From Salinisphaera sp. LB1 (GTDB lineage: Bacteria; Pseudomonadota; Gammaproteobacteria; Nevskiales; Salinisphaeraceae): a DNA stretch of 64,000 bases. A program made the translations under genes and the position numbers. The first letter of the stretch is position 1. Each line of letters opens with the position of its first letter. This document shows positions 1 to 53,936 of this stretch, in pieces. Location: assembly GCF_003177035.1 (NCBI RefSeq), contig NZ_CP029488.1, positions 3,354,501 to 3,418,500 on the forward strand. The letters run 5' to 3'. Under the pieces are notes generated by a model. It saw only the letters and a list, made by a program, of their open reading frames with translations. It was not told the origin of the DNA and searched no databases.

Positions 1-216
1 GAACTCGACCGCGGATACAACGCTCAAGAACAAATACTTAAGGGGTTCAGCGCCATGTTGTGAATAGATGGCGCTGGCGGTGATGTTGATGCCGCGAACA
101 TAATCAAAGTAATCGTCAATAGGCGCTGATCGAGCACACGCAGTTCCACTGCTGATGAATTCAGATAGGTCTACCGTAGACGATATTTCGTGGCGATTTA
201 CTTGAGGGGTATACAT
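1..216 (-). CDS. Unknown protein, N-terminal part, cut by window edge
   Basis: An open frame runs from an ATG at 216 to the left edge of the window without a stop, giving the first 72 residues. It begins MYTPQVNRHEISS and contains an acidic-aromatic stretch (PIDDYFDYVRG). I recognise no domain and assign no function. Its ATG lies only 3 bases beyond the TAG of the ATPase gene at 220, so the two are almost certainly co-transcribed and translationally coupled. Base composition is lower in GC than the recBCD block, as for its neighbour. It is therefore the most likely functional partner of the ATPase. Confidence 0.6.
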   Translation of the reverse strand, partial: MYTPQVNRHEISSTVDLSEFISSGTACARSAPIDDYFDYVRGINITASAIYSQHGAEPLKYLFLSVVSAVEF

Positions 217-219
217 TTT

Positions 220-1914
220 CTACACACTAACGAATTCTTCAGCGTAGGTGCGAATTCGTCGAGCCCATATTTCGCCTACGTAAGGCACCTTTCGTATTGA
301 GAGATCGTCATCGGCCAAAATATCTTGTATTTTTCTGATGCTGGTATGCGATTTTATACTCGATAACCGCCGGTCGGTGAGTGGCAGTTCGTCAATGGAT
401 GCGTTTATAAGCTCTTGATAAACTGAAGCATCGGATAATTCAGCCCCGCAATTCATGCAGAATCTCTGTTCTTCTTTAACTCTCGGTGCTTGGCAAGAAT
501 CACATGGCGGTAAGTCTAAGACACAGCGATCAATGTAGTCACTTCCAAGTAAGCTTGATGCTCTAGTTCGGACAAACGCATGGGCGTCTCGTTTGCTTAG
601 CGAATCGACTAACTCGGCAACCGAGTAGCTCTTGCCTAGTGATAGTGAGTTTTCAGTAACCACGATAGCGTTATGCACATCGTACCTTTGGAAGACGCCT
701 TTAACTCCTCTAGATACCGAGGGTTTCTTTCGTAACAAACCCGCATATTGAAAAAAATTGAGTATACGCTCCAGCTCAAGTGAGACTGGCTCGGCTATCG
801 CTACTGTAACTGCCTTTTTAGGAAGAGGCTTGTTTCGGTTATAAGTCTGAAGAGTAGATGTGATACTACTTTCGAGTTCTTTGCCAACTTCTATAAAGTG
901 TCTAAATCGAGGTAGTTTCGAAGATAGCGATGTATAGACGCCACGCACGGTCTCAGCGTGATCGGCAATCGCTGACATGGCTGAGGATCGAGTAGGTTTC
1001 GCTATATTCGCGTCGTCCATCAATAGCATGTCCGATAACATATTTAGGAACCCCCTAGGCAAGCCGTTAGCAGCGAGCGCAACAAGGTCTACTAGGTCTT
1101 CTCTATCCTCGAACTCTGTGCGCAAAACGTCCGGGATTCTTTTTTTGAATATTTCCCACATAAAGCCTAAGTAGGCCTCAGAGTCTGGCTCGTACCAAAT
1201 CTCAAGAAGCTCCGCCTCGTGGCCTACGTGAAAATTAGGCGAATAGCTCGTGATCCCAGGGTAGATAGCGGCTTTCGCTGAGATATTTCGAGAACGAAGT
1301 TCCCTGAAAATTTCAAAGAAATCCCGCTGTTGTTCAAGCGAAAAAGCGTGTGCGGCATCATCGAATAGAAGTACCACTCTATTGCGATCAAGAGTGCTCA
1401 GCCAATCGCTAAGCAAGCGGATAAGTAGGCTTGGAGTCCGGCTGAGATCGGTTTGTTCTAAAGCTCGCCCGGCCTCTAAAGCCTCTATTAACTCGCGACT
1501 TGATTCCAGTGCTGTACTAAGGGAGTGCGGTACTGTCTCGTCGAGGTCGGAAAAAGTTTCGGCGACGCCTTCGATGATTTTCGCAAGTACCCATTGCCGA
1601 AATAATTGTGCAGCGTTACCGGTTTTATGGAAAAGCGGCTCTAAGGCAAGTGATCGCGAGTAGTTAACGTAAACTCCTAACGCGGTTTGATTTGTGAGGA
1701 GGTCGTAATATGCCCTCTTGAGCATAGTCGACTTTCCTGAACCGCGCGGGCCGGTTAAGAGCTTTGCGCCTGGCCCCTTGAGTTTTTTTAGTAATAACTG
1801 GTCGCGCTTCGTGGTTACTGTCCAGGTATACAGCGCTTTTTTAGTCAGATATTCCGCGCGTTCTTCAAACACGCCTAAAAGATCTGGAGCTTCATGCTCA
1901 TTTGAAGTATTCAT
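220..1914 (-). CDS. P-loop ATPase (ORC/STAND-like) with zinc ribbon and C-terminal HhH-like segment
   Basis: This 564-residue protein has a Walker A motif GPRGSGKST at about residues 55-63 and a Walker B motif VVLLFDDA near 180-187, the layout of ORC/Cdc6-like or STAND ATPases. Cysteines at about 471, 474, 486 and 489 form a CxxC-x11-CxxC zinc ribbon. The last 40 residues (IRKVPYVGEIWARRI) resemble a helix-hairpin-helix, which suggests nucleic-acid contact. No signal peptide or membrane segment is visible, so it should be cytoplasmic. GC is visibly lower and codon choice more relaxed (AAA, GAT, TCT) than in recBCD, which suggests horizontal acquisition. It is paired with the unknown ORF at 1-216. 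A defence or mobile-element role is possible but not shown. Confidence 0.75.
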   Translation of the reverse strand: MNTSNEHEAPDLLGVFEERAEYLTKKALYTWTVTTKRDQLLLKKLKGPGAKLLTGPRGSGKSTMLKRAYYDLLTNQTALGVYVNYSRSLALEPLFHKTGNAAQLFRQWVLAKIIEGVAETFSDLDETVPHSLSTALESSRELIEALEAGRALEQTDLSRTPSLLIRLLSDWLSTLDRNRVVLLFDDAAHAFSLEQQRDFFEIFRELRSRNISAKAAIYPGITSYSPNFHVGHEAELLEIWYEPDSEAYLGFMWEIFKKRIPDVLRTEFEDREDLVDLVALAANGLPRGFLNMLSDMLLMDDANIAKPTRSSAMSAIADHAETVRGVYTSLSSKLPRFRHFIEVGKELESSITSTLQTYNRNKPLPKKAVTVAIAEPVSLELERILNFFQYAGLLRKKPSVSRGVKGVFQRYDVHNAIVVTENSLSLGKSYSVAELVDSLSKRDAHAFVRTRASSLLGSDYIDRCVLDLPPCDSCQAPRVKEEQRFCMNCGAELSDASVYQELINASIDELPLTDRRLSSIKSHTSIRKIQDILADDDLSIRKVPYVGEIWARRIRTYAEEFVSV

Positions 1915-1939
1915 GTGGAAATTCCGGAAAGCGGCGGGT

Positions 1940-2074
1940 TCAGGTCTTGCGTTCTGCGTCGATTCGATAGGTCTTTCGAAAATTAGTAGTTACAACACCA
2001 ATATTCCGGCCGCGCTGGTGTTGTATTGCTTGGAGCAAACCGGCGTTAATGCTCTCGAATGCGTCTTTAGACAT
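1940..2074 (-). CDS. Short ORF resembling the N-terminus of an XRE/NadS-type antitoxin
   Basis: A 44-codon frame starts with ATG at 2074 and ends with TGA at 1940, four bases after the recD stop codon. A GGGG run sits about 10 bases upstream as a possible ribosome site. The start, MSKDAFESINAGLLQAI, resembles the first residues of small helix-turn-helix antitoxins that accompany RelE/HigB toxins (pattern MSKxAFxxIxxGLxEAL), but the frame ends before any HTH. I read it as a truncated remnant. It might instead be a tiny leader ORF for the ATPase gene downstream. No toxin is visible next to it. Confidence 0.35.
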   Translation of the reverse strand: MSKDAFESINAGLLQAIQHQRGRNIGVVTTNFRKTYRIDAERKT

Positions 2075-20325: not shown

Positions 20326-22665
20326 ATGCGATCAGGGTGGGTGGCTGCCATGGCGGCATTGTCGTTGTCGATTCCAGCGGCACATGCGGCTGGCGGTGTT
20401 TATTTCAGCGAATACGTCGAAGGCAGTGGTTATAACAAAGCGTTGGAGATTTACAACGCTACGGGCGGCCCGGTTGATTTAAGCCGGTATGCGGTATCGA
20501 TCTACTTCAATGGGAGTGCCAATGCGGGCGCCACCATCGATTTGAACGGTACTTTGCCCGCCGGCAAAACCTATGTTCTGGCAAGCAGCCGAGCGGAGGC
20601 CGCTATTCTCGCTGTCGCGGGTCAGACCTACGGCGGTAGCCTTTTCAATGGTAACGACGCGATCTCGCTGACCCACGCCGGCAGCACAGACGATGTCATT
20701 GGTCAGATCGGCGAGAACCCCGGCTCGGCCTGGGGTAGCGGCGACGTGACCACGAAAAATCATACGCTGCGTCGTGACACCAGCGTTACGTCGGGCCGTA
20801 CCGATGGATCCGGCCCGTTCGATCCCGCGACGCAGTGGACCGGCGAGCCAGAAGATACCGTCGGCGACCTGGGGCAGTACACGGGCAGCACTGGTGGCGA
20901 TTCGGGCGGTTCGTCCTCATCAGTTGCTTTCGGTAGCTGCGGCGAACACGCGACGCTGATTCACGTAATCCAGGGGGCCGGTGATACGTCCCCGCTGGTT
21001 GGTCAGACCCGTGTGGTTGAGGCCGTCGTGACGGATGTTTCCGTCGAGGCCGGTTCATTGCACGGCTTCTACCTCCAGGCGCTGGATGGCAACGCCGATG
21101 CCGATCCCGATACGTCGGAGGGGCTTTTCGTCTATGACCGCGATGTCAGCGCCCACATCAAGCGCGGCGATCTCGTGCGCGTTCGGGGCGACGTGACGGA
21201 ATACAAGGGCGAGACGGAGTTCCAGAACGTGAATGGACTGGCGATCTGCGGTACGGGGCGGAGCGTCACCCCCGCCCAGCTGCGATTGCCGTTTATCGAT
21301 ACCGATGCGCCGGAGGCCTATGAAGGGATGGCCGTGAGCATCGCCCAAAAATTGACGGTGACCGGCGACTCGGGTCTTGGTCAGTACGGCGAGCTGACGC
21401 TGTCGGCCGCCGGCAGGCTCTATACGCCCACAAATGTAGTGCCGCCGGGCGCGCCGGCCAAGGCGCTCGCCGCCTTCAACGCTCGAAACCGTATCGTTCT
21501 GGACGACGGCAGCAGTGCGCAGGACCCGGATCCGATTATCTATCCCGCCCCTCAACTCACCGCATATCACACGGTACGGGATGGCGACACGATCACCGGC
21601 ATACAGGGTGTTCTGAGCTACCGTTTCGGCGAGTGGCTGATCGAGCCGACGACCCAGCCCGTCATTGATCCGGTCAATCCGCGTCCCGATGCCAGCGCAC
21701 TGCCGAGCGGTGGCAATCTGCGAGTCGCCAGCGCCAATATCGAGAATTATTTCAACGGCAACGGTGAAGGCGGCGGATTTCCGACGCAGCGTGGCGCGGA
21801 CACCTATGCCGAGTATCAGCGCCAACGCGCCAAAACGATTGCGGAACTGAGCAGCCTGCATGCGGATGTCATCGGGCTCATGGAGGTCGAAAACGACGGC
21901 TACGGGCCGGACAGCGCGATCCAGGATATCGTCAATGGTTTGAATGCCGCCGCGCCCGCGGGCACGCATTATGCTTTCGTCGATCCGGGTGGTAATAAAC
22001 TGGGCACCGACGCAATCGCCAACGACATCGTCTACAACACCGAGGCGGTAACTCCGGTCGGAGCGCCGGCCACGCTTCTGGCGCCGCCGTTTGACTACGG
22101 CAATCGGCCGCCGCTGGCGCAGACCTTCGAAACCAACAATCACGCCCGTTTCACTTACGTGGCGAACCATCTGCGTTCAAAAGGCGGGTGCCCGTCCGGC
22201 AATGATCCGAATGCCGCACAAGGCGATGGGCAGGGTTGCTGGAACGTCCAGCGGGCGAAGGCAGCGCAAAAAACGGCCGCCTGGCTTGCCACAGATCCAA
22301 CAGGTAGCGGCGATCCGGACTTCATTCTCATGGGGGACTTCAATAGTTATACCCGGGAGGACCCGATTGCCGCCTTCAAAACGTCGGGTTACACCAGCCT
22401 TCTCCAGGCGCGGGCAAGTGCGCATGCCTATACATACACCTACAAGGCTGAAGCGGGCGCCCTTGATCATGCGCTTGTGAATCAATCGATGCTGGATCAA
22501 GTGCTGGCCGTGATGCCGGCACACTTGAACGCGGACGAACCGAAGGTGCTCGACTACAACACGGAGTACAAAAGCGCCGGTCAGCTGTCGTCGCTATACG
22601 CGCCGACGCCGTATCGCGCCTCGGATCACGACCCGTTGGTGGTCGAACTCGATTTGACCCCCTAA
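20326..22665 (+). CDS. ExeM/NucH-type extracellular nuclease with lamin-tail domain
   Basis: This 779-residue exported protein has a signal peptide to about residue 21 (AAHA). A lamin-tail domain follows (YFSEYVEGSGYNKALEIYN, about 25-165), then an OB-fold-like region near 200-340 with VRVRGDVTEYKGETEFQ. The endonuclease/exonuclease/phosphatase domain runs from about 465 to the end: LRVASANIENYF, IGLMEVENDGYG with the metal-binding Glu, FILMGDFNSYTRED, and SDHDPLVVEL with catalytic Asp-His. The architecture matches ExeM-type secreted DNases used in biofilm DNA turnover. The C-terminus ends without a GlyGly-CTERM or PEP-CTERM tail, so free secretion, possibly by type II secretion, is inferred. 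Confidence 0.92.
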   Translation: MRSGWVAAMAALSLSIPAAHAAGGVYFSEYVEGSGYNKALEIYNATGGPVDLSRYAVSIYFNGSANAGATIDLNGTLPAGKTYVLASSRAEAAILAVAGQTYGGSLFNGNDAISLTHAGSTDDVIGQIGENPGSAWGSGDVTTKNHTLRRDTSVTSGRTDGSGPFDPATQWTGEPEDTVGDLGQYTGSTGGDSGGSSSSVAFGSCGEHATLIHVIQGAGDTSPLVGQTRVVEAVVTDVSVEAGSLHGFYLQALDGNADADPDTSEGLFVYDRDVSAHIKRGDLVRVRGDVTEYKGETEFQNVNGLAICGTGRSVTPAQLRLPFIDTDAPEAYEGMAVSIAQKLTVTGDSGLGQYGELTLSAAGRLYTPTNVVPPGAPAKALAAFNARNRIVLDDGSSAQDPDPIIYPAPQLTAYHTVRDGDTITGIQGVLSYRFGEWLIEPTTQPVIDPVNPRPDASALPSGGNLRVASANIENYFNGNGEGGGFPTQRGADTYAEYQRQRAKTIAELSSLHADVIGLMEVENDGYGPDSAIQDIVNGLNAAAPAGTHYAFVDPGGNKLGTDAIANDIVYNTEAVTPVGAPATLLAPPFDYGNRPPLAQTFETNNHARFTYVANHLRSKGGCPSGNDPNAAQGDGQGCWNVQRAKAAQKTAAWLATDPTGSGDPDFILMGDFNSYTREDPIAAFKTSGYTSLLQARASAHAYTYTYKAEAGALDHALVNQSMLDQVLAVMPAHLNADEPKVLDYNTEYKSAGQLSSLYAPTPYRASDHDPLVVELDLTP

Positions 22666-22742
22666 ACACATGGAATCGTGCGGCAGGCTATTGCCCCGGC
22701 ATTGCTGCCTGGTGTCGTTCAACACTCAAGGGAGACTCAATC

Positions 22743-23321
22743 ATGAAACTGCAACTTCTCGCCGTTCTGGCCACGGCCGGCCTGGCCTGCGGCGTGGCGA
22801 ATGCGACCGTCATCAACTTTTCAGGTTCGATCACAGGCGTGACGAATGCTGGCTCGGGGTTCTCCGCGGGCGACGCGCTCACCGGGTATCTGGATCTGGC
22901 CGACGATGTGAATATGAGCCCGGGTGCGACGTTCGGTAACGGCGACGGCGCCTATCCGGATGATTTGCTCCGCACGCTTAATCTGACGATTGACGGTATG
23001 GATTTCGTGAATCCGCTGACGTCTTACAGTGGGACGGTCGCGCCGTCGGGCAATACGCTCAGCGGATTCGTCGCGGCTTCCGGCCCCGACGATTTCGGCA
23101 GTAATTGCAGCTATTGCGTTGGCGAATTCCATGCGGATGGCTTCAGCATCACCAATTTTCTGGATGGAAATGCGGTGACGGGCGAGCTGTCGGCTGAAAT
23201 TCAGCCGTCGGGCTCTCTGCCGGTGGCCGAGCCGTCGAATCTGGCAATGTTCGGACTCGCCGTATTCGGCATTGGCGGCCTGGTTCGCCGGCGTATTGCA
23301 CGCGGACAGCACGACGCTTAG
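22743..23321 (+). CDS. Second PEP-CTERM-type exported protein
   Basis: This 192-residue protein has a signal peptide (MKLQLLAVLATAGLACGVAN, then AT) and a mature domain starting VINFSGSITGV, similar in opening to the protein at 13327 (VINFDQAS). It contains a CSYC pair near residue 121. The sorting tail is AEPSNLAMFGLAVFGIGG followed by LVRRRIARG. A GGGAGA ribosome site lies 8 bases before the ATG, 77 bases after the ExeM-type nuclease, so the two may share a transcript. The role is unknown; such proteins are typically surface or matrix proteins. Confidence 0.75.
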   Translation: MKLQLLAVLATAGLACGVANATVINFSGSITGVTNAGSGFSAGDALTGYLDLADDVNMSPGATFGNGDGAYPDDLLRTLNLTIDGMDFVNPLTSYSGTVAPSGNTLSGFVAASGPDDFGSNCSYCVGEFHADGFSITNFLDGNAVTGELSAEIQPSGSLPVAEPSNLAMFGLAVFGIGGLVRRRIARGQHDA

Positions 23322-24130
23322 GGCCAGCCGCGGTAGCACGCGACGTCGCCGCCGGGCGGCTCGAAAATCGTTTTGGCCAGAGGGGCAGGGCATGACCGCA
23401 ATCAGTCCGCGGTCAAGCCCTGCGACGCCGAAAAGCGCCTATCGCTCCATGACGAGGCACCGTTCGGCGGCTCTGCAGCTTCATGCGGAAATTCCGCTAT
23501 TTGATGATCTTTGGGGCAGGGCAAGGTGTCTCGGAAGCTTGCTGTTATCAGAAAAGCAAGAGCCGCCCGGCACGGCTGCTGACAATCGTTTACGCATTTT
23601 ATGGGCGCATACCTTAGCCGTTAGCAGTGTGTTTGATTGGGTTCTTGCAACGCCATTGACTTTATATTTTCAATCGATTCAAGAGTATTAGTTTTTGCAA
23701 AATATATTTATAAAAGAATTGAATTTCAATTGTTCTATAAAATAATAATTTAATTAATATCATGTGCTATAAAATGTGCCATGGTAACTATTATATCTTT
23801 ATATTTATGCGATTTAATATCTATCGAATGCAAATGTTTATTGCATAAAAGACGGGTTTGTTCGCGAATTATTTTCCGCAGCAGTATTGATCGCTGCGGA
23901 CGTCGCCCTGCGCCTTGCCGGGTGCGATCTCGACCCTTTGCCGGTCTGGCCGGAGAGTGCCAAAGCGCTACCAAGCGATTTTCACATGTACGAGCTGCAT
24001 TGCGACACGTTGATGCAATAAAGCTCCGCTAGCGTGTTGTCGCAATCTCGAACCTCGGGGGATCGAGATATTCCGACCAGTGTGGAGGACTGCCCTCCGC
24101 GTCACAGCCAAGGGAGGCTATTGGGGTTCC
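23322..24130. other. 809-bp gene-free, partly very AT-rich region before the TonB receptor
   Basis: The first 300 bases are GC-rich with no plausible gene. From about 23640 to 23880 the sequence drops to very high AT, with runs such as AATATATTTATAAAAG and TAAAATAATAATTTAATTAA. A 7-1-7 inverted repeat AATTGAATTTCAATT lies at 23717-23731; it is not a good Fur-box match. A frame ending TTGATGCAATAA at 24020 has no start. The AT-rich block is a candidate promoter or silencer-bound region, about 250-490 bases from the receptor start. Confidence 0.45.
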
Positions 24131-26335
24131 ATGTTATTCAATAAGCAAGTACGGCCGGCATTGCCGCTATTACTGACCGGCGGCGTTCTGATGGCGTCCG
24201 CGGCCATTGCGGCGACTACCGATGCCGGCACGAACAAAGGCCAGGCCGGCGACACGACGGCAGCAGCCCCGGCGCCAGCTGCGGCCGCGCCTGCCGCCGC
24301 CGCCCCGGCGTCGAAGAGCATGACCGTCAGCACTACGACGCTGGATGAGATTTCGGTAACGGGGCAGGCGGATTACCTGAAGCTTTTGACGGGTCAGGCG
24401 CAGGTGCCTGACGCCACACGCACAATTACCACGGTTACACAGGCACAGATTCAGGATGCGACGTCACCGGTACAGGATTTTGCGGCGGCGCTGACCAACC
24501 AGCCCAACTTCTTCCGTTCGCATACCGGGTCCAACGACAGCGGCAGCGACTTCAGGCTCCGAGGTTTCCAGAAAGATCATCTCAACGTAATGATCGATGG
24601 CATTCCCATCAACTCGTCGGACGACGGTTCTGTCTATACCAACGATGTCACCAACAACTATGCAATCAGCAGCATCGATGTTATGCCGGGCGCCGGTTCG
24701 GCATCGACGGTTGGCCTCAGCAACTTCGGCGGATCGATTGATGTTCACAGCAAGGATCCACAGCCGAATTTCTATGTACAGCCCTATCTGGGCGTCGGTT
24801 CATTTCATGCCAAGCAATACGGTGCGCAGATCAACACCGGGTCGTTCCTCAACGACAGCACGTCGGCCATCCTGAGTCTTTCCGCGCGCGACGGCGACGG
24901 CTACTACGACCATACGAACACCAAATATCGCAACGACGCGACGTTCAAGGCCATCAGCAAACTGCCGCTCGGCAAGCTCACGCTGTATTTCCACAGTACG
25001 GACCAGAGCTACAACTACTATCGCGGCATCACCGATGCCGAGAAGGCGCAATACGGCAAACGTTACAACGGATACAACGAAGATCCAAAAACGACGAACT
25101 ATTACGGCTACAATTACAACAAGTATTACAATAATCGCACTTACATCAAGTACGAGATTCATCGTGACAAGATCGATGTTTCTAACCAGCTGTACTACTA
25201 CCATGGCAGTGGGTACGGCGCGTCCGGTTATAGCGATTACAATACCGGGGATCTCTATCTCGAGAAGAGCTGGAATAAAACCAACCAGGTCGGCAACATC
25301 TTCCGTTTCGCCTACGATACGAAATACGCCACGTTCAAAACCGGGGTGTACTGGAGTTACCAGAACACGGACCATGTCGCGAACCTGAACCCGTTGTTCG
25401 GGGCGCCGGCTAAGAGCCCCGTTTATGACGAGACGGTCAAGAACAGCACTGAGCAGCCGTACATCGAAGTTGAAATCCGGCCGTTCAAGCACTTCACCGT
25501 CACCCCCGGCCTGAAGTACGCGCGCATCGACCGCGATTTCTACAATAACTCGTATAACGAGCATCAGACGGTTTCGTACAATCGCTTGCTGCCGTCGCTG
25601 GGCATGAACTATCAGTTGCTGGAGGGTTGGAACCTTTACGCGAACTACACGCGTTCGTTCAAGCCGCCGGGGTACAACCAGTTCTATAGTGGCCGGTTCA
25701 ACCTCGCGCTCGCACCCGAGGAAGCCGATAGCTACGAAGTGGGCACGATCTGGGATAAGGGTCCGTGGAGCGGGCGTTTGACGTTGTTCGATACCCATTA
25801 CCTGAGCTATATCCGCTCCAAGAGCTTTCAGGAGCCCAACGGTTCCGGCACGTTCTCGCAGCTCGTTAACGCCGGCGGGCGGGTCAACCAGGGGGTGGAA
25901 CTCGAAAACAGCTATGCCTTCAACAGTTGGTTGTCCGGCTTTGCGAACATTGGTTATCTGGACGCCTATTACAGCGATCACGGCCAGCCGCCCACGCAGT
26001 CGCCCCGTAACACGGATGCGCTGGGTCTACGGGTTAAATACAACGGCTGGTCCGGCGGTATCTCGGCAGATTACACCTCGGCCTATTACGTGAGTCTGTA
26101 CGATAACCAGTACTACAAGATCTCCAGCCACGTGGATACGAAGGCGTATGCGAAGTACGACGTTCCCGACGCCATCGTCAAAAATTGGGGCGTCAAAAAG
26201 ATGTCGTTTTCGGTCAATCTCGACAATCTTCTCAACGACCAGTACGTCACCGGCGCCGGCTACGGCCCGGCCAATCCGCGCAAGAAGTATGCGGAGCCGT
26301 TCAACGTTTTCGCGGGGATGTATGTTCGTTTCTAG
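24131..26335 (+). CDS. TonB-dependent outer-membrane receptor (siderophore-type)
   Basis: This 734-residue outer-membrane receptor takes up ferric siderophores or similar ligands using TonB energy. It has a signal peptide to about residue 28, then an unusual Ala/Pro-rich linker (TTAAAPAPAAAAPAAAAPAS), a TonB box-like LDEISVTG, and a plug domain with FRLRGFQKDHLNVMIDGIP. The beta-barrel contains GWNLYANYTRSFKPPGYNQF and ends in FAGMYVRF with the terminal Phe required for assembly. The barrel is rich in Tyr and Asn. I chose ATG 24131, although an in-frame GTG lies at 24080. No other iron-uptake genes are adjacent, so the ligand is unknown. Confidence 0.9.
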   Translation: MLFNKQVRPALPLLLTGGVLMASAAIAATTDAGTNKGQAGDTTAAAPAPAAAAPAAAAPASKSMTVSTTTLDEISVTGQADYLKLLTGQAQVPDATRTITTVTQAQIQDATSPVQDFAAALTNQPNFFRSHTGSNDSGSDFRLRGFQKDHLNVMIDGIPINSSDDGSVYTNDVTNNYAISSIDVMPGAGSASTVGLSNFGGSIDVHSKDPQPNFYVQPYLGVGSFHAKQYGAQINTGSFLNDSTSAILSLSARDGDGYYDHTNTKYRNDATFKAISKLPLGKLTLYFHSTDQSYNYYRGITDAEKAQYGKRYNGYNEDPKTTNYYGYNYNKYYNNRTYIKYEIHRDKIDVSNQLYYYHGSGYGASGYSDYNTGDLYLEKSWNKTNQVGNIFRFAYDTKYATFKTGVYWSYQNTDHVANLNPLFGAPAKSPVYDETVKNSTEQPYIEVEIRPFKHFTVTPGLKYARIDRDFYNNSYNEHQTVSYNRLLPSLGMNYQLLEGWNLYANYTRSFKPPGYNQFYSGRFNLALAPEEADSYEVGTIWDKGPWSGRLTLFDTHYLSYIRSKSFQEPNGSGTFSQLVNAGGRVNQGVELENSYAFNSWLSGFANIGYLDAYYSDHGQPPTQSPRNTDALGLRVKYNGWSGGISADYTSAYYVSLYDNQYYKISSHVDTKAYAKYDVPDAIVKNWGVKKMSFSVNLDNLLNDQYVTGAGYGPANPRKKYAEPFNVFAGMYVRF

Positions 26336-46073: not shown

Positions 46074-46889
46074 ATGAGGCGAATCCAACCATGGTCCGAC
46101 CTGACTGGACCTGAACTGGCGACGACCGCCGCGCAGGACCCGGTGGCGCTGCTGCCGGTGGCCGCGATCGAGCAGCACGGCCCGCATCTGCCGTTGGCGA
46201 CCGACGTGACAATTGGCGAGGGGCTCGTCGATGCTGCCATTGCGCAGCTGGAATGCGATGCCGCGCCCCTCGATCTGTTGATCCTGCCCACGCTGGCCGT
46301 GGGCGCGAGCCTGGAACACACCGGCTTTGCCGGCACGCTGAGCCTGTCCGCCGAACAGGCCATCGCCCAGATCCGGGCGGTGGGCGCCAGCGTGGCGCGC
46401 GCCGGGATCCGGCGCCTGGTGTTGTTCAACAGCCACGGCGGCAACAAGGCCGTGCTCGATCTTGCGGCGCTGCAGCTGCGGGCGGATTACGGGCTGCTGG
46501 TGGTCAAGGCCAATTATTTCCGCTTCGCCCCGCCGACGGGTGCGCTGGGCGCCGAAGAGCTGGCGCACGGCCTGCACGGCGGGGCGCTGGAAACGTCGAT
46601 GATGCTGCATCTGGCGCCCGGCACGGTACGCCGCGAGGCACTGGCCGATCACCCCTCGCTCGGGGCGCAGCGCGCGCGGGCGGGTGCCACGCTCGGCCCG
46701 GAGGGCGACGCCGGTTTCGCCTGGATGGCGGAGGATCTGAATCCGGCCGGCGTCACCGGCAATGCGGCGGCGGCCGACGCCGCGACGGGGGCGCGCCTGG
46801 TGGAGGCTTTCGGCGCACGCCTGGCCGAGATCGTGGCCGAAACGGCGACCTTTGATCTCGGCGCGCTCGGCGGGCCGGCTCGGTCGTGA
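46074..46889 (+). CDS. Creatininase-family amidohydrolase
   Basis: This 271-residue protein carries the creatininase metal sites: LLPVAAIEQHGPHLPLATDV (Glu, His, Asp ligands), GFAGTLSLSAE, LVLFNSHGGNKAVLDLAA and HGGALETSMMLHLAPG with the downstream Glu. The superfamily includes creatininase, MftE and the archaeal formamide hydrolase ArfB, which acts on a GTP-derived riboflavin or deazaflavin precursor. Its position 4 bases from a convergent GTP cyclohydrolase II gene suggests an ArfB-like step on a ribosylated pyrimidine, an inference. The start codon lies just after a half MITE. Confidence 0.85.
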   Translation: MRRIQPWSDLTGPELATTAAQDPVALLPVAAIEQHGPHLPLATDVTIGEGLVDAAIAQLECDAAPLDLLILPTLAVGASLEHTGFAGTLSLSAEQAIAQIRAVGASVARAGIRRLVLFNSHGGNKAVLDLAALQLRADYGLLVVKANYFRFAPPTGALGAEELAHGLHGGALETSMMLHLAPGTVRREALADHPSLGAQRARAGATLGPEGDAGFAWMAEDLNPAGVTGNAAAADAATGARLVEAFGARLAEIVAETATFDLGALGGPARS

Positions 46890-46892
46890 TCC

Positions 46893-48071
46893 TCAGTCCT
46901 GTTCGTTGCGGTCCGGGTCCGGCGTGTCGGTGAGTACCGGTTCCTGGAGCAGGGCGTCCAGCCAGTGGCCGGCCCGCTCCGCCTTGGTGGTCAGATAGCG
47001 CTGATTCTGCCGGGTCAGCCGACCGTAGATGCCACTGCGCCCGGCGACCTCGATCGGCTCGCGATTCATCGCGTCGATCTTGGCCGGATTGTTGGTGAGC
47101 AAATCGATATGCGCGACATCGAGCTGGGCCAGTATCTCGCGGGCCACGGCATAATCGCGCTCATCCTGGTCGAAACCGAGTACGCGATCGGCGTCGACCG
47201 TGTCCAGGCCGTCGTCCTGCATCTGGTAGGCCCGCATCTTGTTGGCCAGCCCGATGCCGCGGCCCTCTTGGGCCAGGTAGAGCAATACACCGCCACCGCG
47301 CTCGTGGATGGCGGCCAGGCTGGCCTTGAGCTGAGGGCCGCAGTCGCAGCGCAGGCTGCCGAAAAGATCACCGGTGAGGCAGGCCGAGTGCAGACGGACC
47401 GGCACCGGCGCCGGCCAGCACGCGGCGTCGCCGATGATGATGGCGACGTGCTCGCGCATGCCGTCGGCTTCGCGGAAGACGATGAAGCGCGAGTTGGGCG
47501 CGGCATCCAGCGGCACATCCGCTTCGCTCACGCGGCGCAGCAGCGACGGGGCGGCCTGGCGGTGGGCGAATACATCCGCCGCGGCGACCGACAACAGATC
47601 GCCGCGATCGAGGCGACGTGCGATGCGCGGGCCCAGATGATCATCCGGCTCGATCACGACCGCCGCGGGGATCAGCAAACCGCGGCGCATCAACGCCAGG
47701 GCGGCATGGCCCGCATCGGATATGGGCAGGGCCCGGCGTGTGTCGGGCCAGCGGGCGCCCGGATCGGCCGCCCACTGGATCAGCGCGTCGCGGCTGTCCG
47801 TGGCTTGCAATGCGATCGCGGCGGGTGCGCCGGCGGGAGAGCGGCCGAGGTGGGCCAGGCGATGCTCGGTCAGCACGAGCTGGGGCGCGTCGCGCGCGCC
47901 GGCACGCATTTCGTCCAGCAGCGCCGCGCTGGTGCCTTCGATGGATGCGACCAGATAGCGGGTTTGCGGCGTATCTATGACTACCGGCAGGCCGCGCCGA
48001 AGATCGAAGATCGCACGCTCGACATGTTGCATGAAGCGTTCCTGTATCGATTCCAAGTGCTGGGCAGTCAT
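46893..48071 (-). CDS. GTP cyclohydrolase II with degenerate RibB-like N-terminal domain
   Basis: GTP cyclohydrolase II converts GTP to 2,5-diamino-6-ribosylamino-4(3H)-pyrimidinone 5'-phosphate, formate and pyrophosphate. Residues from about 190 hold the RibA domain: SACLTGDLFGSLRCDCGPQL with the three zinc cysteines (C-x10-C-x-C), LAQEGRGIGLANKMRAYQM, and LLTNNPAKIDAM. The first 190 residues align in pattern with 3,4-dihydroxybutanone-phosphate synthase (RAIFDLRRGLPVVIDTPQTR) but lack its acidic REnEGD site, so that activity is probably lost. The gene is convergent with the creatininase and divergent from the RibD-type reductase. Its setting suggests a dedicated copy, not the housekeeping riboflavin enzyme. 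Confidence 0.88.
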   Translation of the reverse strand: MTAQHLESIQERFMQHVERAIFDLRRGLPVVIDTPQTRYLVASIEGTSAALLDEMRAGARDAPQLVLTEHRLAHLGRSPAGAPAAIALQATDSRDALIQWAADPGARWPDTRRALPISDAGHAALALMRRGLLIPAAVVIEPDDHLGPRIARRLDRGDLLSVAAADVFAHRQAAPSLLRRVSEADVPLDAAPNSRFIVFREADGMREHVAIIIGDAACWPAPVPVRLHSACLTGDLFGSLRCDCGPQLKASLAAIHERGGGVLLYLAQEGRGIGLANKMRAYQMQDDGLDTVDADRVLGFDQDERDYAVAREILAQLDVAHIDLLTNNPAKIDAMNREPIEVAGRSGIYGRLTRQNQRYLTTKAERAGHWLDALLQEPVLTDTPDPDRNEQD

Positions 48072-48138
48072 GCAACCGTGGCTTGCTAACGTGAATCCGC
48101 GGACGATAGGGCCGTCCGGAATCGTTTAAAGGCTGCGT

Positions 48139-48960
48139 ATGATGCCATTTATCGACAACACTTACGCTTGGCGCGTGATTCGCGATGCGCGCCGTCGAGC
48201 GGCCGACGACATCTGGCGGGTCGACCGAGCGCTGACGATCGAGCCCGGGGGCCGGTGGGCGGCCGATGCCCCCGTCGAGGCGGAGGCGGCCTTTTTGTTC
48301 GATAGCTTGCTGCCGCTGGCGTTCTGTCGCCGCGATCATGTGGTGGCGCAGCTCGGCCAGAGCCTGGACGGGCGCATCGCCACCGCGAGCGGACATTCCC
48401 ATTACGTCACCGGAGAGCCCAGCCGTGTTCATCTGCATCGACTGCGGGCGCTGGCCGACGTCGTGATCGTCGGCGCCGGGACGGTCGACGCCGATGATCC
48501 CCAGCTCACCGTGCGCCACGTCGCCGGCGATGACCCGGTGCGCGTGGTGCTCGACCCGCGCGCCCGGGTGCCGGCCGACCGGCGCGTGTTCAGCGATGGC
48601 GGGCCGCCAACGTGGCACGTCGTCGCCCCGGGTCAGGCGGCCGCGCCCGGCGCGTTGCCGTTGCCAATGGCCGGCACCGATAGCGACGGCCTGCCGCGGG
48701 CCATTCTCGACGCTCTGGCCGAGCGCGGACTGCATCGGGTGCTGATCGAAGGCGGCGGTGTGACCATTTCGCGCTTCATCGATGCCGGCTGCGTCGACCG
48801 GCTGCATACGGTCGTGGCACCGCTTTTGATCGGCTCGGGCCGGCCGGGGCTCGCCCTGGCCGAAATCGAAACGCTGCACCAGGCCCGGCGGCCGCGATGT
48901 CGGTCGTATGCGTTGGGCGAGGATCGGCTCTACGATCTGGATTTGCGGACGTCGCGCTAA
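48139..48960 (+). CDS. RibD C-terminal-type (pyrimidine) reductase, stand-alone
   Basis: This 273-residue protein holds a RibD_C/DHFR-like reductase domain from about residue 68: AQLGQSLDGRIATASGHSHY, LADVVIVGAGTVDADDPQL, HRVLIEGGGVTISRFID and VVAPLLIGSGRPG. In riboflavin synthesis this domain uses NADPH to reduce the ribosyl group of a GTP-derived pyrimidine to ribityl. The deaminase domain normally fused at the N-terminus is absent; in its place are about 65 residues of unknown type. It is divergent from the GTP cyclohydrolase II gene, 67 bases apart, which implies a joint regulatory region. Confidence 0.87.
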   Translation: MMPFIDNTYAWRVIRDARRRAADDIWRVDRALTIEPGGRWAADAPVEAEAAFLFDSLLPLAFCRRDHVVAQLGQSLDGRIATASGHSHYVTGEPSRVHLHRLRALADVVIVGAGTVDADDPQLTVRHVAGDDPVRVVLDPRARVPADRRVFSDGGPPTWHVVAPGQAAAPGALPLPMAGTDSDGLPRAILDALAERGLHRVLIEGGGVTISRFIDAGCVDRLHTVVAPLLIGSGRPGLALAEIETLHQARRPRCRSYALGEDRLYDLDLRTSR

Positions 48961-48980
48961 GAGCCTATTGGAATAGGCTC
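48961..48980 (+). terminator. Hairpin directly after the RibD-type reductase stop
   Basis: GAGCCTATT pairs perfectly with AATAGGCTC around a GG loop, starting at the base after the TAA stop. No T-tract follows; instead the MITE end begins at the next base. It may be part of the repeat element rather than a true terminator. Confidence 0.4.
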
Positions 48981-49241
48981 TAGGGCCTGTTGCCGTTTCG
49001 TACACGTGCCGCGTTGTAGACCGCAAATCCGTCGAGACAAGGCGCGCGTCGCCGGTCGTGGCGAGCCACGATCAAGACGCGCAACGCCGTATCGGCGGAT
49101 TTGCGGCCCAACCCGAAGGGACAAGCGCTGTTTTGCGGCAATACAGCGTTGTAGCTCAACGACTACGCTACGTTCGCTACGCCTCGTCTTGCCGCAAAAC
49201 AGCGCTTGGCGCGGACGCGGACGAAACGGCAACAGGCCCTA
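48981..49241. mobile_element. 261-bp MITE-like element with perfect 21-bp terminal inverted repeats
   Basis: The ends TAGGGCCTGTTGCCGTTTCG(T) at 48981-49001 and 49221-49241 are exact reverse complements, with TA at both outer borders, consistent with TA target duplication. Inside are a 19-bp perfect inverted repeat AAGCGCTGTTTTGCGGCAA (49123-49141 with 49189-49207) and another at 49021-49031/49096-49106. There is no ORF. It separates the RibD-type reductase from the methyltransferase gene, ending 2 bases before the latter's stop codon. Confidence 0.8.
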
Positions 49242-49243
49242 AA

Positions 49244-50095
49244 TCAGCGCCGGCGCGGATTGGGCAGGCCAAGCACGTCGACATGGCCGATGCACAGTCG
49301 CGCCCGGCCGCGCTCGACGGCCTCGACCCGCCGCGCCGCCCAAGCGGCCATGCGCTCGGCCTGATCCGGCTGCTGACTGGTTGCGGCCGAGTGCCAGCCC
49401 GCGATCAGGGCGCGTGCAAGGGCGGCGTCGTCGCGGCCGAGCTGCCAGTCGCTCGGCTGCGTAGCCACGGCATAACCGCATCGCGCCAGGGCATTGATCA
49501 ACACCGCCGGGGCGGCGGCGCCGAGGGCGAGACCGAAGCCTTTGTCGCGCGCCTGATCACGGGCGAGGGCCCGGCGCACGACCGCATCGTCCACGTCGGC
49601 ATCGGAGAACTGGATCCGGCCGTCGACGCTGAGCGTGATCAGTACCGCTGCGCCGGCGTGGGCGCAGGTCTCAGCCAGCGTGTCGATCCAGCCGCGCGAG
49701 ACGAGATCGATCAGCGCGGAGGCGGTGACCAGATCGGCGTCGCGCAGCACCGGGGCCAGCGGGGCGGCCAGATCGACGATCTCGGCGGACAGCTGGCAAC
49801 TCTCTCCGGCATCCGGCGGCATGGCGCGTTCGGCTGCGGCGAGCAGCTCGGCATCCTGGTCCAGCAGGCGCCACGCGACCGGCCGGTGCAGCCGCGGGGC
49901 CAGATAGCGCAGGTTGGATCCGCGTCCGGCGCCGAGATCCACCACCCGCGCGTGGCGCCCGGCGGCCGTGCGGCGCAGATGTTCGGCGGCGAAAAACGTG
50001 AGTCCGTGGGCCCGGCTGCGATGATCGACGGCTTCGCGAAGCGTCAGCCAATCGTCGGCGAAGTGCGAGCCCGCAGCGGGCAACGCGCCGCTCAT
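49244..50095 (-). CDS. Class I SAM-dependent methyltransferase
   Basis: This 283-residue protein has the SAM-binding glycine loop ARVVDLGAGRGSNLRYLAP near residues 48-66, an acidic strand end LLDQDAELL, then ADLVTASALIDLVSRGWID as the post-II region. The substrate cannot be read from sequence. It is the last gene of a four-gene overlapping set and its ATG overlaps the glycosyltransferase stop (ATGA). A methyl transfer to the product of the adjacent GTP-derived pathway is the simplest inference. The 3' end abuts the MITE. Confidence 0.8.
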   Translation of the reverse strand: MSGALPAAGSHFADDWLTLREAVDHRSRAHGLTFFAAEHLRRTAAGRHARVVDLGAGRGSNLRYLAPRLHRPVAWRLLDQDAELLAAAERAMPPDAGESCQLSAEIVDLAAPLAPVLRDADLVTASALIDLVSRGWIDTLAETCAHAGAAVLITLSVDGRIQFSDADVDDAVVRRALARDQARDKGFGLALGAAAPAVLINALARCGYAVATQPSDWQLGRDDAALARALIAGWHSAATSQQPDQAERMAAWAARRVEAVERGRARLCIGHVDVLGLPNPRRR

Positions 50096-51150
50096 GCGAG
50101 CGCGACCCGATCGAGGATCGCGGCAAAGCGCGCACCGGCGTCGTCCCAGTCAGGCAGGGTGGCGGCGGCCCGCAGCGCCCCCGCCGCCAGACCGGCGTAG
50201 GCGTCGGGATCGGACAGCAGCCGGCGCAGACCGTCGGCGAGCGCCTCGGAATCGCCCGGCGGCACCGCCAGCCCGGCGTCGTCCGGGAGCGTGTCGGCGA
50301 GCGCGCCGCCGGTGGTGGTGATGACGGGCAGGCCGTGGGCCAGCGCCTCGGTCACGACCATGCCGTAGCCCTCGTAGTAGGACGGCAGTATGAATAGGGT
50401 AGCGTCGTCGTAGGCAGCCGAGAGCGCCTGCGGCGGGCGGCTGCCGTTGAGATGAATGCGCCCGGCCAGCTGGTGACGATCGATGGCGTCGCGGATATCG
50501 GCCACGCACGCCGGGTCGCGTTCGGTGTCGCCGATGAAGTCGCAACGCCACGCCAGATCGGCGACTTGTGCCAGTGCCGCCACCAGAACGGCGTGGCCCT
50601 TGCGCGGAATCAGGCTAGCCACGCAAAGCAGGCGTGGCGTACCCCCGCGCTTTCGCAGTGCGATACCGGCCGGCTTGTCCAGACCGGGTGCCACGATATC
50701 GAGATCGGCGCGGGCGACGCCGTAGGCGCTGGCCAGGCGCCGGGCGGTGAATTCGCTGGTGACGATGACGTGCGCGGCGTTGGCGAGCGCGCGTCGCTCG
50801 TTCGCGAACAGGCGATCGGCCAACGCGCCGTCGATGCCGGATTCGTCGGCCAGTGGATGATGGATCAGCGCCACCAGTCGAAGCCGGTCCGATTCGCGCG
50901 CAATAATCTCCGGCAGGGCGCCGAACACGAGCCCGTCGACGATCACCAGTTCGCCATCGAGCCGCGCGGCGAGCGCTGCGGTCAGCGCCGACGCCGCCGG
51001 GTCGTCGGCCTCGGGAAAACGGCCGGCGAGCCCGACGACTTCAATGGCATGGCCGGCGCGGCTGGCCGCGCGCGAGATGCGGGCGTCGTAGATATAGCCG
51101 CCGGTGTACTGTGTCGGGTCGCCGGCGACCAGCATCAGGGTCGGTTTCAC
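50092..51150 (-). CDS. GT4-family glycosyltransferase
   Basis: This 352-residue GT-B enzyme has an N-terminal YTGGYIYDARISRAASRAGH, a hinge region PRLLCVASLIPRKGHAVLV near 170-190, and the GT4 donor site FILPSYYEGYGMVVTEALAHG with the E-x7-E pattern. It should transfer a sugar from a nucleotide-sugar to a small acceptor. The start is GTG at 51150, overlapping the pterin-synthase-like stop (GTGA). No lipopolysaccharide or exopolysaccharide genes surround it, so a small-molecule acceptor from this locus is more likely. Confidence 0.87.
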   Translation of the reverse strand: MKPTLMLVAGDPTQYTGGYIYDARISRAASRAGHAIEVVGLAGRFPEADDPAASALTAALAARLDGELVIVDGLVFGALPEIIARESDRLRLVALIHHPLADESGIDGALADRLFANERRALANAAHVIVTSEFTARRLASAYGVARADLDIVAPGLDKPAGIALRKRGGTPRLLCVASLIPRKGHAVLVAALAQVADLAWRCDFIGDTERDPACVADIRDAIDRHQLAGRIHLNGSRPPQALSAAYDDATLFILPSYYEGYGMVVTEALAHGLPVITTTGGALADTLPDDAGLAVPPGDSEALADGLRRLLSDPDAYAGLAAGALRAAATLPDWDDAGARFAAILDRVALA

Positions 51151-51545
51151 AGCTCGGCCTCGTAGCCGGCCCAGGCGATGTGCGACTCGGACAGTTGCAC
51201 GCCCATCCGGCAGAGACCGGCCGCGCCCGCGCCGAGGCGCCCGTCCGCAATCGCCTGTTGCAGGCGATTGAAGATTTCGCCGGCCATGAATTCGGTGGTG
51301 GTGTTGCGTCCGGCCATGGCCGGGTTGTCGTCGAGGTTACGCAAATTGAATTCGGCCAGCGCTGCCGACAGCGCGGTCGAGGCGGCGCCGATATCGACCA
51401 CCAGATCGTCGTCGTCGAGGGTCTGGCGATAAAAAGTGACATCGACGACATAAGTGGCGCCGTGGAGCGCCTGGGCGGGGCCGAACGTCGGGCTGGAGAA
51501 ACTATGGGCGATCATGATGTGATCGCGCACGGTCAGGTGATACAT
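51147..51545 (-). CDS. Divergent 6-pyruvoyl-tetrahydropterin synthase/QueD homologue
   Basis: This 132-residue protein has the PTPS fold pattern: DHIMIAHSFSS at the start, LHGATYVVDVTF, NTTTEFMAGEIFNRL and the ending QLSESHIAWAGYEA, which keeps the late Glu. Several usual active-site residues are missing. The zinc motif HGHxY is HGATY, the catalytic Cys four residues before it is Ala, and the Asp-His pair region reads FNLRNLDD. It probably performs another reaction or only binds a pterin-like compound. I chose the ATG at 51545, overlapping the dehydrogenase gene by 13 bases. Confidence 0.8.
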   Translation of the reverse strand: MYHLTVRDHIMIAHSFSSPTFGPAQALHGATYVVDVTFYRQTLDDDDLVVDIGAASTALSAALAEFNLRNLDDNPAMAGRNTTTEFMAGEIFNRLQQAIADGRLGAGAAGLCRMGVQLSESHIAWAGYEAEL

Positions 51546-52537
51546 GGCGGATCCTGGCAGTTGGCGTAGACGATGCGCTGGCACAGTGTACGGTCTGCGG
51601 GATCGGCCAGCCGTTCCATGATCGCCGGCAGGCTGTCGAAGTCGGCGTCGTCGGCGAACAGTACGTCGAACCGGGCATCCGCGCACAGGTCCAGCGCCAG
51701 CGCGAGCCGGCGCCGGTGACTCCAGCGGGCGGCGCGCGCAGGCGAGACCGTGCCCACCTGGCTCGCTTTTAGCGTGAGCCGCCGCGAATGGAACACCCCG
51801 CCCAGGGCCACACTGGTTGCCTGCGTGCCGAACCAGCTCAGTTCCACGATCTCGGCCTCGGGGCCGGCCAGGGACAGCGCGGTATTCAGCCCCGCGGCGC
51901 TCGCGCTGGCATGGAACACCAGATCGCGACCGCCGGTCGCGTTTTCGGGTCGGGCGAATGCCGCGCCCAGCGCCGACGCCACCGAGGCGCGGCCGCTGTC
52001 GATATCGACCAGTTCCACCGCGACGCCCGGCAGATCAACGCACAGACCGGCCACCAGGCTGCCGATCACGCCGGCGCCGACCACGCTGATCCGGTCGCCG
52101 ACCCGGGGGCCGGCGTCCCACAACGCGTTGACGGCGGTTTCCATGTTGGCTGCGAGCACGGCGCGCTCGGCCGGCACGTTCGGCGGCACGGCCACCACGG
52201 CATCGCGTGGCACGACGTACCGCGTTTGGTGCGGATACAGACAGAAAACCGGACGGCCGAGCCAGCCCGGCGGTCCGCGCTCGACCACGCCGACGTTGGC
52301 ATAACCATGCTTGACCGCACCGGGCAGGGTGCCGGCCTGGAACGGTGCACGCATGCGGTCGTATTCGCTTTCGGGCACGGCCCCGGCATAAACTAAGGTT
52401 TCGGTGCCGCGGCTGATCGCTGAATAGGAGGTTCGGACGACCACGTCGTCCGCGCCCGCGCAGGGCAGGGTTTCTGTGCGCAGGCTGGCGCGGCGCGGCG
52501 GCTCGAGCCAGAGTGCCCGGGCGATGTCAGCGGTCAT
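51533..52537 (-). CDS. Medium-chain dehydrogenase/reductase without clear catalytic zinc site
   Basis: This 334-residue MDR-family protein has an N-terminal GroES-like part (VVVRTSYSAISRGTETLVYA) and a Rossmann dinucleotide loop VVGAGVIGSLVAGLCVD near 155-171. An acidic ELVDIDSGRAS follows, which favours NAD(H). The usual GHE zinc motif is replaced (KHGYANVGVVERG), so the catalytic zinc seems absent. It is the first gene of the overlapping minus-strand set and probably oxidises or reduces the sugar or ribityl part of the product, which is inference. I chose the ATG at 52537. Confidence 0.82.
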   Translation of the reverse strand: MTADIARALWLEPPRRASLRTETLPCAGADDVVVRTSYSAISRGTETLVYAGAVPESEYDRMRAPFQAGTLPGAVKHGYANVGVVERGPPGWLGRPVFCLYPHQTRYVVPRDAVVAVPPNVPAERAVLAANMETAVNALWDAGPRVGDRISVVGAGVIGSLVAGLCVDLPGVAVELVDIDSGRASVASALGAAFARPENATGGRDLVFHASASAAGLNTALSLAGPEAEIVELSWFGTQATSVALGGVFHSRRLTLKASQVGTVSPARAARWSHRRRLALALDLCADARFDVLFADDADFDSLPAIMERLADPADRTLCQRIVYANCQDPPCIT

Positions 52538-52700: not shown

Positions 52701-53936
52701 GTGAAGAATAGTTTTTTTGAGCGTTTCATCAGCCGCGGAACCCTGGTTTTGCACCACGCCGACGGTGCGGAACAGCGCTACGGTTCCGGCGAACCGGTCG
52801 CCCACGTGCATCTGCGGACGACCAAAGTGCTCAGGCGTTTGCTGGCTGATCCGGAAATGGCCTTCGGCGAGGCCTATATGGACGGCGACTGGTGGCCCGG
52901 CGAGGGCGGCCTGCAGGCGGTATTCCGCCTCTATTTCGCCAACGAGAACAACTTGCAATCCAATCGTTTGATGGATCTAGCGCGCCGCGCGTTCCACAGC
53001 GTGCGCGAAATGAATACCCGCATGCGCGCCGAGCGCAACGTGCAGCACCACTACGACATCGACAACGAGCTTTTCCAGCGTTTCCTCGACCCGGAAATGC
53101 AGTATTCCTGTGCCTATTTCGAACACGAGGGGATGTCGCTGGACGAGGCGCAACGCGCCAAGCTCGCGCATATCGGTCGCAAGCTGTTGCTCGAACCGGG
53201 GCAGAAGGTGCTCGATATCGGCTGTGGCTGGGGCGGGATGGCGCTGTTTCTGGCCCGCGAGTACGACGTCGATGTGGTCGGGCTGACCTTGTCCAACGAT
53301 CAGTACGATCATGCCTGCCAACGCGCCGAGACGCTCGGTCTGAGCCACCGCGTGACCTTCCTCAAGGAGGACTATCGCGAGCATCAGGGCGCCTATGACG
53401 CCATCGTGTCGGTGGGCATGTTCGAGCATGTGGGGCGGCCGCAGTATCAGACGTTCTTCGATCAGGTCGCGCGCCTGCTCAAGCCGGACGGTCGCAGCCT
53501 GATTCATTTCATCGCGCGCAACGGCGTGCCGCCCAAGGACAGCCGCACCTGGATCCAGAAATACATTTTCCCGGGCGGCTATATTCCTTCCCTGTCGGAT
53601 TTCGCGCCATGTATCGAGAAAACCGGCATGTCCCTGTCCGACCTCGAAGTCTGGCGGCTGCACTACGCCCGGACGCTGGCCGCCTGGAACGTGCGCTTCC
53701 AGGCCGAGCGCGATGTGTTCCGCGAGCGGCTGGGCGAACGCTTCTGCCGGATGTGGGAGTTTTACCTGCTCGGTTGCGAAGCGATCTTTCGCTACGGCCA
53801 GCTCGTGGTCTACCAAGTGCAACTGGCGCACCGCAACGATGCCGTGCCCGTCACGCGTGATTATCTGTACGCCGAGCAAGAGCCGGAGCCCGCGGTTGCT
53901 CGGGCCCGGCAATCGTCGGTGAGCGCGGCCGGCTGA
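52701..53936 (+). CDS. cfa: Cyclopropane-fatty-acyl-phospholipid synthase
   Basis: This 411-residue enzyme transfers a methylene from SAM to unsaturated membrane acyl chains. Landmarks are MAFGEAYMDGDWWPGEGG, VQHHYDIDNELFQRFLDPEM with YSCAYFEH, the SAM loop VLDIGCGWGGMALFLAREY, and YIFPGGYIPSLSDF. The C-terminal WEFYLLGCEAIFRYGQLVVY is family-typical. The start is GTG at 52701. It is divergent from the dehydrogenase gene, 163 bases apart, and is probably not functionally part of that locus. Cfa enzymes help stress and salt tolerance. Confidence 0.94.
   Translation: MKNSFFERFISRGTLVLHHADGAEQRYGSGEPVAHVHLRTTKVLRRLLADPEMAFGEAYMDGDWWPGEGGLQAVFRLYFANENNLQSNRLMDLARRAFHSVREMNTRMRAERNVQHHYDIDNELFQRFLDPEMQYSCAYFEHEGMSLDEAQRAKLAHIGRKLLLEPGQKVLDIGCGWGGMALFLAREYDVDVVGLTLSNDQYDHACQRAETLGLSHRVTFLKEDYREHQGAYDAIVSVGMFEHVGRPQYQTFFDQVARLLKPDGRSLIHFIARNGVPPKDSRTWIQKYIFPGGYIPSLSDFAPCIEKTGMSLSDLEVWRLHYARTLAAWNVRFQAERDVFRERLGERFCRMWEFYLLGCEAIFRYGQLVVYQVQLAHRNDAVPVTRDYLYAEQEPEPAVARARQSSVSAAG

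Follow-up and report, generated by a model that had tools for sequence, protein, structure and literature searches.

A 64,000-nt stretch of the Salinisphaera sp. LB1 genome (contig NZ_CP029488.1; hereafter the window) contains a conserved seven-gene locus at window positions 46074-52537, which probably diverts the first intermediate of riboflavin synthesis into another compound. The locus joins GTP cyclohydrolase II (GCHII) and a stand-alone RibD-type reductase to a creatininase-family protein, a methyltransferase (MT), a GT4 glycosyltransferase, a PTPS homologue and an MDR-type dehydrogenase. An earlier reading of the letters alone (the original prediction) had placed seven enzymes together here and proposed a branch that starts at GTP and runs through GCHII and a reductase lacking a deaminase. 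Its seven genes and their overlaps were confirmed from the open frames, Pfam searches supported five of the families, and the branch is supported as a real conserved locus. The seven genes, in window coordinates, are:

46074..46889, plus strand: creatininase-family hydrolase, 271 aa (PF02633, E 9.8e-65), a proposed formamidase or amidohydrolase
46893..48071, minus strand: GCHII, 392 aa (PF00925, E 1.5e-55), with an N-terminal extension of about 180 residues
48139..48960, plus strand: stand-alone RibD-type reductase, 273 aa (PF01872, RibD_C, E 5e-38)
49244..50095, minus strand: predicted class I S-adenosylmethionine (SAM)-dependent MT, 283 aa (Foldseek match of the model)
50092..51150, minus strand: GT4 glycosyltransferase, 352 aa (PF13692, Glyco_trans_1_4, E 1.7e-28; PF00534, E 6.9e-27)
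51147..51545, minus strand: PTPS (T-fold) homologue of the SCO6650 type, 132 aa (PF01242, E 1.1e-20)
51533..52537, minus strand: MDR-type dehydrogenase, distantly BchC-like, 334 aa (NCBIfam BchC, below cut-off)

The seven open frames occupy both strands, and the MDR-PTPS-GT4-MT block is contiguous, overlapping and entirely on the minus strand. The MT and GT4 genes overlap by ATGA (50092-50095), and the GT4 and PTPS genes by GTGA (51147-51150). The PTPS and MDR genes share 13 bases (51533-51545), given a PTPS start at the ATG at 51545, which was chosen as the first position of the conserved alignment.

Proposed pathway

In the proposed pathway GCHII would open GTP and the creatininase-family enzyme would perhaps strip the formyl group, the product of GCHII with or without the creatininase being 2,5-diamino-6-ribosylamino-4(3H)-pyrimidinone 5'-phosphate. 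The RibD-type reductase would then convert the ribose of this product to ribitol with no deamination. The PTPS homologue and the MDR dehydrogenase would rework the resulting ribityl-diaminopyrimidine, perhaps closing a pteridine ring, and the MT and GT4 enzymes would complete the molecule, which their families suggest is methylated and glycosylated. The gene content, the conservation of the locus, the sole GCHII, the GCHII-reductase fusion in relatives and the loss of the HGH motif in the PTPS homologue were observed directly. The first two steps can reasonably be inferred, and the later ones are more tentative. If correct, the pathway would leave riboflavin synthesis after one step and be spread over several phyla.

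Conservation and taxonomic spread

Among 60 genomes of near relatives, 15 showed a PTPS match, of which 14 were strong and one was weak (G018). The strong loci came from all 13 congeners and from one of three other family members. All 14 kept the order MDR, PTPS, GT4, MT, reductase, GCHII, a grouping beyond chance. The creatininase gene was present in 13 of them, one of these cut by a contig end, and was absent from G002, where about 2.9 kb of contig lies past GCHII.

For a wider census we scanned 84,980 species genomes with MDR as the anchor and used the best 80 of 96 relatives. Contig identity with congeners assigned 13 of the 80 to Salinisphaeraceae, including the records labelled Lysobacterales SP48 and Endozoicomonas G2_2 (L082, L083), and left 67 others. 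Many of these 67 loci end at contig ends, and 41 span at least 20 kb. Outside Salinisphaeraceae, PTPS was found in 66 of the 67 loci, GT4 in 61, the reductase in 44, MT in 40, GCHII in 30 and the creatininase in 12; the respective counts for the 41 long loci were 41, 40, 28, 29, 23 and 10. MDR, PTPS and GT4 occurred together in 61 of the 67. The core that recurs widely is MDR-PTPS-GT4, and about two thirds of the 41 long loci add MT and reductase. The full set of seven belongs mainly to Salinisphaeraceae: it was present in 12 of 13 loci of that family but in only two of the 41 long loci elsewhere (Crossiella and Pseudonocardia). The neighbourhood which the original prediction set up for comparison across distant taxa is conserved in its MDR-PTPS-GT4 core, whereas all seven genes together are rare outside Salinisphaeraceae.

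The census loci came from Gamma-, Beta- and Alphaproteobacteria, many Actinomycetota, and two metagenome-assembled genomes (MAGs), one of Longimicrobiales (Gemmatimonadota) and one of Kofleriaceae. The Longimicrobiales MAG carried MDR, PTPS, GT4, MT, reductase, creatininase and a CDP-alcohol phosphatidyltransferase, and the Kofleriaceae MAG carried MDR, PTPS, reductase and a CDP-alcohol phosphatidyltransferase.

Because the census is anchored on MDR, we performed an independent PTPS-anchored test in 398 Pseudomonadota genomes, the window genome included. At 1e-8, 39 of the 398 matched, and 27 matches (own included) were strong. An MDR gene adjoined PTPS in all 26 other strong loci, and GT4 and MT were each present in 24. 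Four of the 13 weak matches from this test and the near-relative set together were inspected, and none of the eight other genes was found at these loci. Annotated plasmids of Streptomyces, Thiodictyon, Rhizobium, Methylosinus and Microbacterium carried the same set, and a Rhodobacteraceae plasmid carried a short set without GT4. Co-occurrence far past close relatives was therefore borne out by the MDR-anchored, PTPS-anchored and plasmid data, and the cluster is an old, genuine and widespread biosynthetic unit. Because such distantly related bacteria carry versions of it, its product is probably useful to many of them. A viral origin was dropped; six pattern matches fell in viral contigs, with no relative among them.

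GCHII and riboflavin supply

The cluster GCHII scored 187.7 bits against a Pfam cut-off of 23.3 bits, and 227 bits against 148 with the RibA model NF001591. Aligned with 2bz0, it keeps the zinc Cys cluster, the QEGR motif and a Tyr at the E. coli Tyr105 position. It reads YLAQEGRG where 2bz0 reads YHRQEGRN, with Ala replacing the Arg before QEGR. The form YLAQEGRG is that of Salinisphaeraceae; other cluster GCHIIs mostly have R before QEGR, or RGHEGR. As a possible decayed DHBP synthase, the N-terminal extension gave a weak match (probability 25.5 over 63 columns).

The window genome has no GCHII other than this one, which is also the only plausible one in all 14 genus genomes, three of which are represented by assemblies less than 90% complete. 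The ribD, ribE and ribH genes lie at one other site in the genome and ribB at another. The cluster itself holds no deaminase, lumazine synthase, riboflavin synthase or DHBP synthase and so is not a riboflavin operon. Because these rib genes are elsewhere and there is no other GCHII, riboflavin synthesis in this genus most likely also draws on the cluster enzyme. The statement in the original prediction that this is not the riboflavin pathway does not apply to GCHII, although it is right for the other genes of the locus. Sharing of GCHII would tie vitamin B2 supply to the cluster pathway in Salinisphaera.

A second GCHII domain was found in seven of the 14 genus genomes, always as RibBX in the order ribD-ribE-ribBX-ribH. 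The other half of the genus, including the window genome with its separate ribB, shows no second GCHII domain. We rejected a second working GCHII in half of the genus, as all seven copies are RibBX without the zinc cysteines (all seven sequences were inspected for these; the copies share 90% identity or more across their length, with four aligned). RibBX with a dead GCHII domain and no GCHII activity has been described for other bacteria in PMC10012899.

The reductase and its link with GCHII

The reductase scored 131 bits with RibD_C (cut-off 24.1 bits), and its top solved relatives are riboflavin-pathway reductases, which places it among RibD-type reductases. It stays under the equivalog cut-offs, so its exact substrate is not set by family models. 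Pfam detected RibD_C alone, with no deaminase domain, and the protein is not a bifunctional RibD. A canonical complete ribD is present elsewhere in the genome; this second RibD would serve riboflavin, and the cluster reductase would therefore be free for another product.

Of the 22 loci outside Salinisphaeraceae with both GCHII and the reductase, nine have the two in a single open frame (L091, L123, L134, L137 and L141-L145, with Pfam confirming two). The titles of these nine records all name Actinomycetota genera. The fusion points to consecutive steps. The reductase is also kept in loci without GCHII, such as those of Kushneria (L084-L088) and Thiohalocapsa (L140). On plasmids of Thiodictyon (L149:12534-13091) and Rhizobium (L150:11026-11565), a cytochrome b561 gene adjoins the reductase.

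The creatininase and the GCHII Tyr position

The creatininase-family protein is the only member in the genome. Aligned with the creatininase 1q3k, it retains the EQHG, H and HGGxxETS positions. It falls under the cut-offs of the MftE, creatininase and ArfB models (22 against 180 bits for ArfB), and we propose it as a candidate formamidase of the pathway. BrbF of Sinorhizobium and Brucella, a creatininase-family protein, is described in PMC9478397 as deformylating a GTP-derived formamide. The present protein shares the Pfam family of BrbF and ArfB and lies beside a GCHII, and its likeness to them is one of family membership.

The residue equivalent to Tyr105 was Tyr in all 14 Salinisphaeraceae GCHII rows, 13 of which have a creatininase. 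Outside Salinisphaeraceae, loci with both GCHII and creatininase had Met (7) or His (4), non-Tyr in 11 of 11, and GCHII loci without a creatininase in the stretch examined had Tyr in 19 of 19. The twelfth creatininase locus outside the family (L131) showed no GCHII in the stretch examined. The Met/His pattern is as expected if the altered GCHII stops at the formamide and the creatininase completes the reaction. The GCHII tree joined the Met and His rows with moderate support (89/77). The cluster GCHII rows as a whole formed several well separated groups in the same neighbourhood, which fits repeated recruitment of GCHII into the loci.

Weighing the proposed branch from riboflavin synthesis

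Several observations weigh against the proposed branch. GCHII was missing from 37 and the reductase from 23 of the 67 loci outside Salinisphaeraceae, and among the 41 long loci 18 had no GCHII and 13 no reductase. The Met and His rows may be one clade, and the creatininase association may for that reason be a single event. Salinisphaeraceae keep Tyr alongside the creatininase, outside the Met/His rule, so that in this family there is no obvious need for the creatininase to act as a formamidase. Every chemical step, the succession of the steps and the kind of compound made are inferred.

One alternative is a scattered riboflavin gene (ribA) lying by chance beside an unrelated glycosyl/methyl operon, with MDR-PTPS-GT4-MT as the sole functional unit, acting on a substrate not derived from GTP. 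We consider this unlikely. In its favour, the cluster GCHII, the genome's only copy, must serve riboflavin, and the genes for GCHII and the reductase diverge from the four-gene operon and are missing from the loci of many relatives. However, GCHIIs of several separate tree lineages occupy the same neighbourhood, nine such loci have GCHII fused to the reductase, and the reductase persists in loci without GCHII.

Membrane companion genes

Two membrane families identified by Pfam accompany most of the other loci. CDP-alcohol phosphatidyltransferase was present in 49 of the 67 and LPG_synthase_TM in 44, with either in 54; in the 41 long loci the counts were 28 and 31. Both companions were found in six of 14 Salinisphaeraceae loci. 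All six of these genomes also have RibBX; the seventh RibBX genome (G008) lacks both companion genes. Neither gene was found at the window locus, and the window genome's paralogues of the two families gave 24-60 bits or nothing against the cluster profiles and are not of the cluster type. In L115 (15496-17931) and L090 (15417-17765) the CDP-alcohol phosphatidyltransferase domain stands at the N terminus of a protein some 800 residues long, the remainder of which had no Pfam match.

The companions hint at a membrane-linked product. One alternative is that the cluster originally made a membrane-linked glycolipid or phospholipid derived from GTP, and that the window organism lost the two membrane genes and makes a soluble or simplified form. 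The frequency of the companions across the census, their presence together in some Salinisphaeraceae loci and the cytochrome b561 gene next to the reductase in Thiodictyon and Rhizobium speak for it. Against it stand the lack of any known lipid acceptor or donor, the absence of each companion gene from some loci, and the window genome's paralogues, which are of another type; we consider this alternative unlikely too. Similarly doubtful is a ribityl-pyrimidine or pteridine glycoconjugate, derived from GTP, which would be attached to the membrane or passed across it in most lineages. That such a glycoconjugate would form a new class, possibly redox-active and used across several phyla, is a speculative extension at the same low level, suggested by the companions and the occasional cytochrome b561.

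The PTPS homologue

In the PTPS homologue of the cluster, the HGH motif is replaced by HGA in 76 of 80 rows and by HGV in three, and one incomplete row is without that stretch. HGH is described in PMC5041015 as the subfamily marker. With HGH gone, the protein lacks the motif region expected of PTPS-I, II or III (QueD, PTPS and folate type), and because the motif is lost ordinary pterin-synthase chemistry is doubtful. The label of pterin-synthase homologue in the original prediction was right as to the PF01242 family, but it did not mention the loss of HGH.

A pterin or 7-deazaguanine route, with the homologue acting like QueD or PTPS, is very improbable. It is favoured by the PF01242 match and by the public annotation of relatives as '6-carboxytetrahydropterin synthase', but the QueD model gave 35.6 bits against a cut-off of 89, all 79 rows showing the motif have HGA or HGV, and no GTP cyclohydrolase I, QueC or QueE family is among the seven genes. 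Queuosine and biopterin chemistry were dropped on the motif and the QueD score.

The top solved relative by profile was Streptomyces SCO6650 (PDB 3d7j, E 1.2e-56 over 131 positions), deposited as uncharacterised. SCO6650 reportedly lacks zinc and PTPS activity. With an MDR gene adjoining a PTPS homologue without HGH, the window locus is a cluster of the SCO6650 type. The proposed pathway, if true, would explain the orphan structure 3d7j and the many relatives publicly annotated as queuosine enzymes without motif support.

Comparison with known systems

No characterised pathway matching the gene set was found in the literature searched, in agreement with the original prediction, which had recognised none. 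The riboflavin pathway has the same first enzyme, common to both in the window organism. The cluster reductase differs in having no deaminase partner and lies instead beside MDR, PTPS, GT4 and MT.

Individual parts are already known from S. coelicolor, where SCO6650 is a close relative of the window PTPS homologue, and the locus probably branches from the GTP-to-riboflavin route. Annotated Streptomyces loci have CDP-alcohol phosphatidyltransferase, MDR, PTPS, GT4, MT, creatininase and ribA together. The S. coelicolor GCHII SCO6655 is said to make a formamide intermediate through a Tyr to Met change. In contrast, the window GCHII keeps Tyr and is the only GCHII, and the window locus has a reductase and neither CDP-alcohol phosphatidyltransferase nor LPG_synthase_TM. 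SCO6655 is listed in PMC2853524 as 'GTP cyclohydrolase II, riboflavin metabolism', with expression opposite to the predicted flux.

Toxoflavin and pseudoiodinine clusters also use GCHII, a RibD-type protein and a methyltransferase for a non-vitamin product, as proposed here. These clusters have a full-length RibD and other partner genes, and the genes listed for them include no PTPS, MDR or GT4. The pseudoiodinine operon is described in PMC9911603 as holding GCHII, RibD and methyltransferases together with WD-40, sulphatase-modifying-factor and glyoxalase-type dioxygenase proteins. An azapteridine antibiotic pathway of either kind, each beginning with GCHII and RibD and using methyltransferases, is the least probable alternative, as none of the seven genes belongs to those three partner families and the RibD deaminase domain is missing in the window locus. 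A toxoflavin-like pathway was dropped, since the partner genes differ.

Other cluster proteins and surroundings

The MT scored 21.6 bits with Pfam Methyltransf_12, below the cut-off of 30. Its predicted model (pLDDT 92.5) matched class I SAM methyltransferases in Foldseek, with 3mgg at the top (E 3.6e-11) and modest best TM-scores of 0.54-0.59 to the query. The assignment as a class I SAM methyltransferase is weak by sequence and clear by the predicted model.

The MDR protein had no Pfam match, and its top NCBIfam hit, BchC, scored 49 bits where the cut-off is 291. Its relatives carry the public annotation 'zinc-binding alcohol dehydrogenase'. At 59-60% identity to the other genus, it is the most conserved cluster protein between genera, second to the flanking cyclopropane fatty acid (CFA) synthase. 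In three betaproteobacterial MAG bins from one metagenome (FW021; L069-L071), MDR was 71-78% identical to that of the window and nearer to it than most congeners' MDRs, indicating transfer or mis-binning.

The CFA synthase gene (window 52701-53936, plus strand) borders the cluster in each of the 14 Salinisphaeraceae loci inspected; beside the cluster in the 67 remaining loci, only two short weak matches were found (L101 and L114). An Rfam scan of the window at gathering cut-offs returned a single tRNA and no riboswitch. The G+C content was 0.47 at window 1-2000 and 0.56 at 22001-26000, compared with about 0.65 elsewhere in the window.

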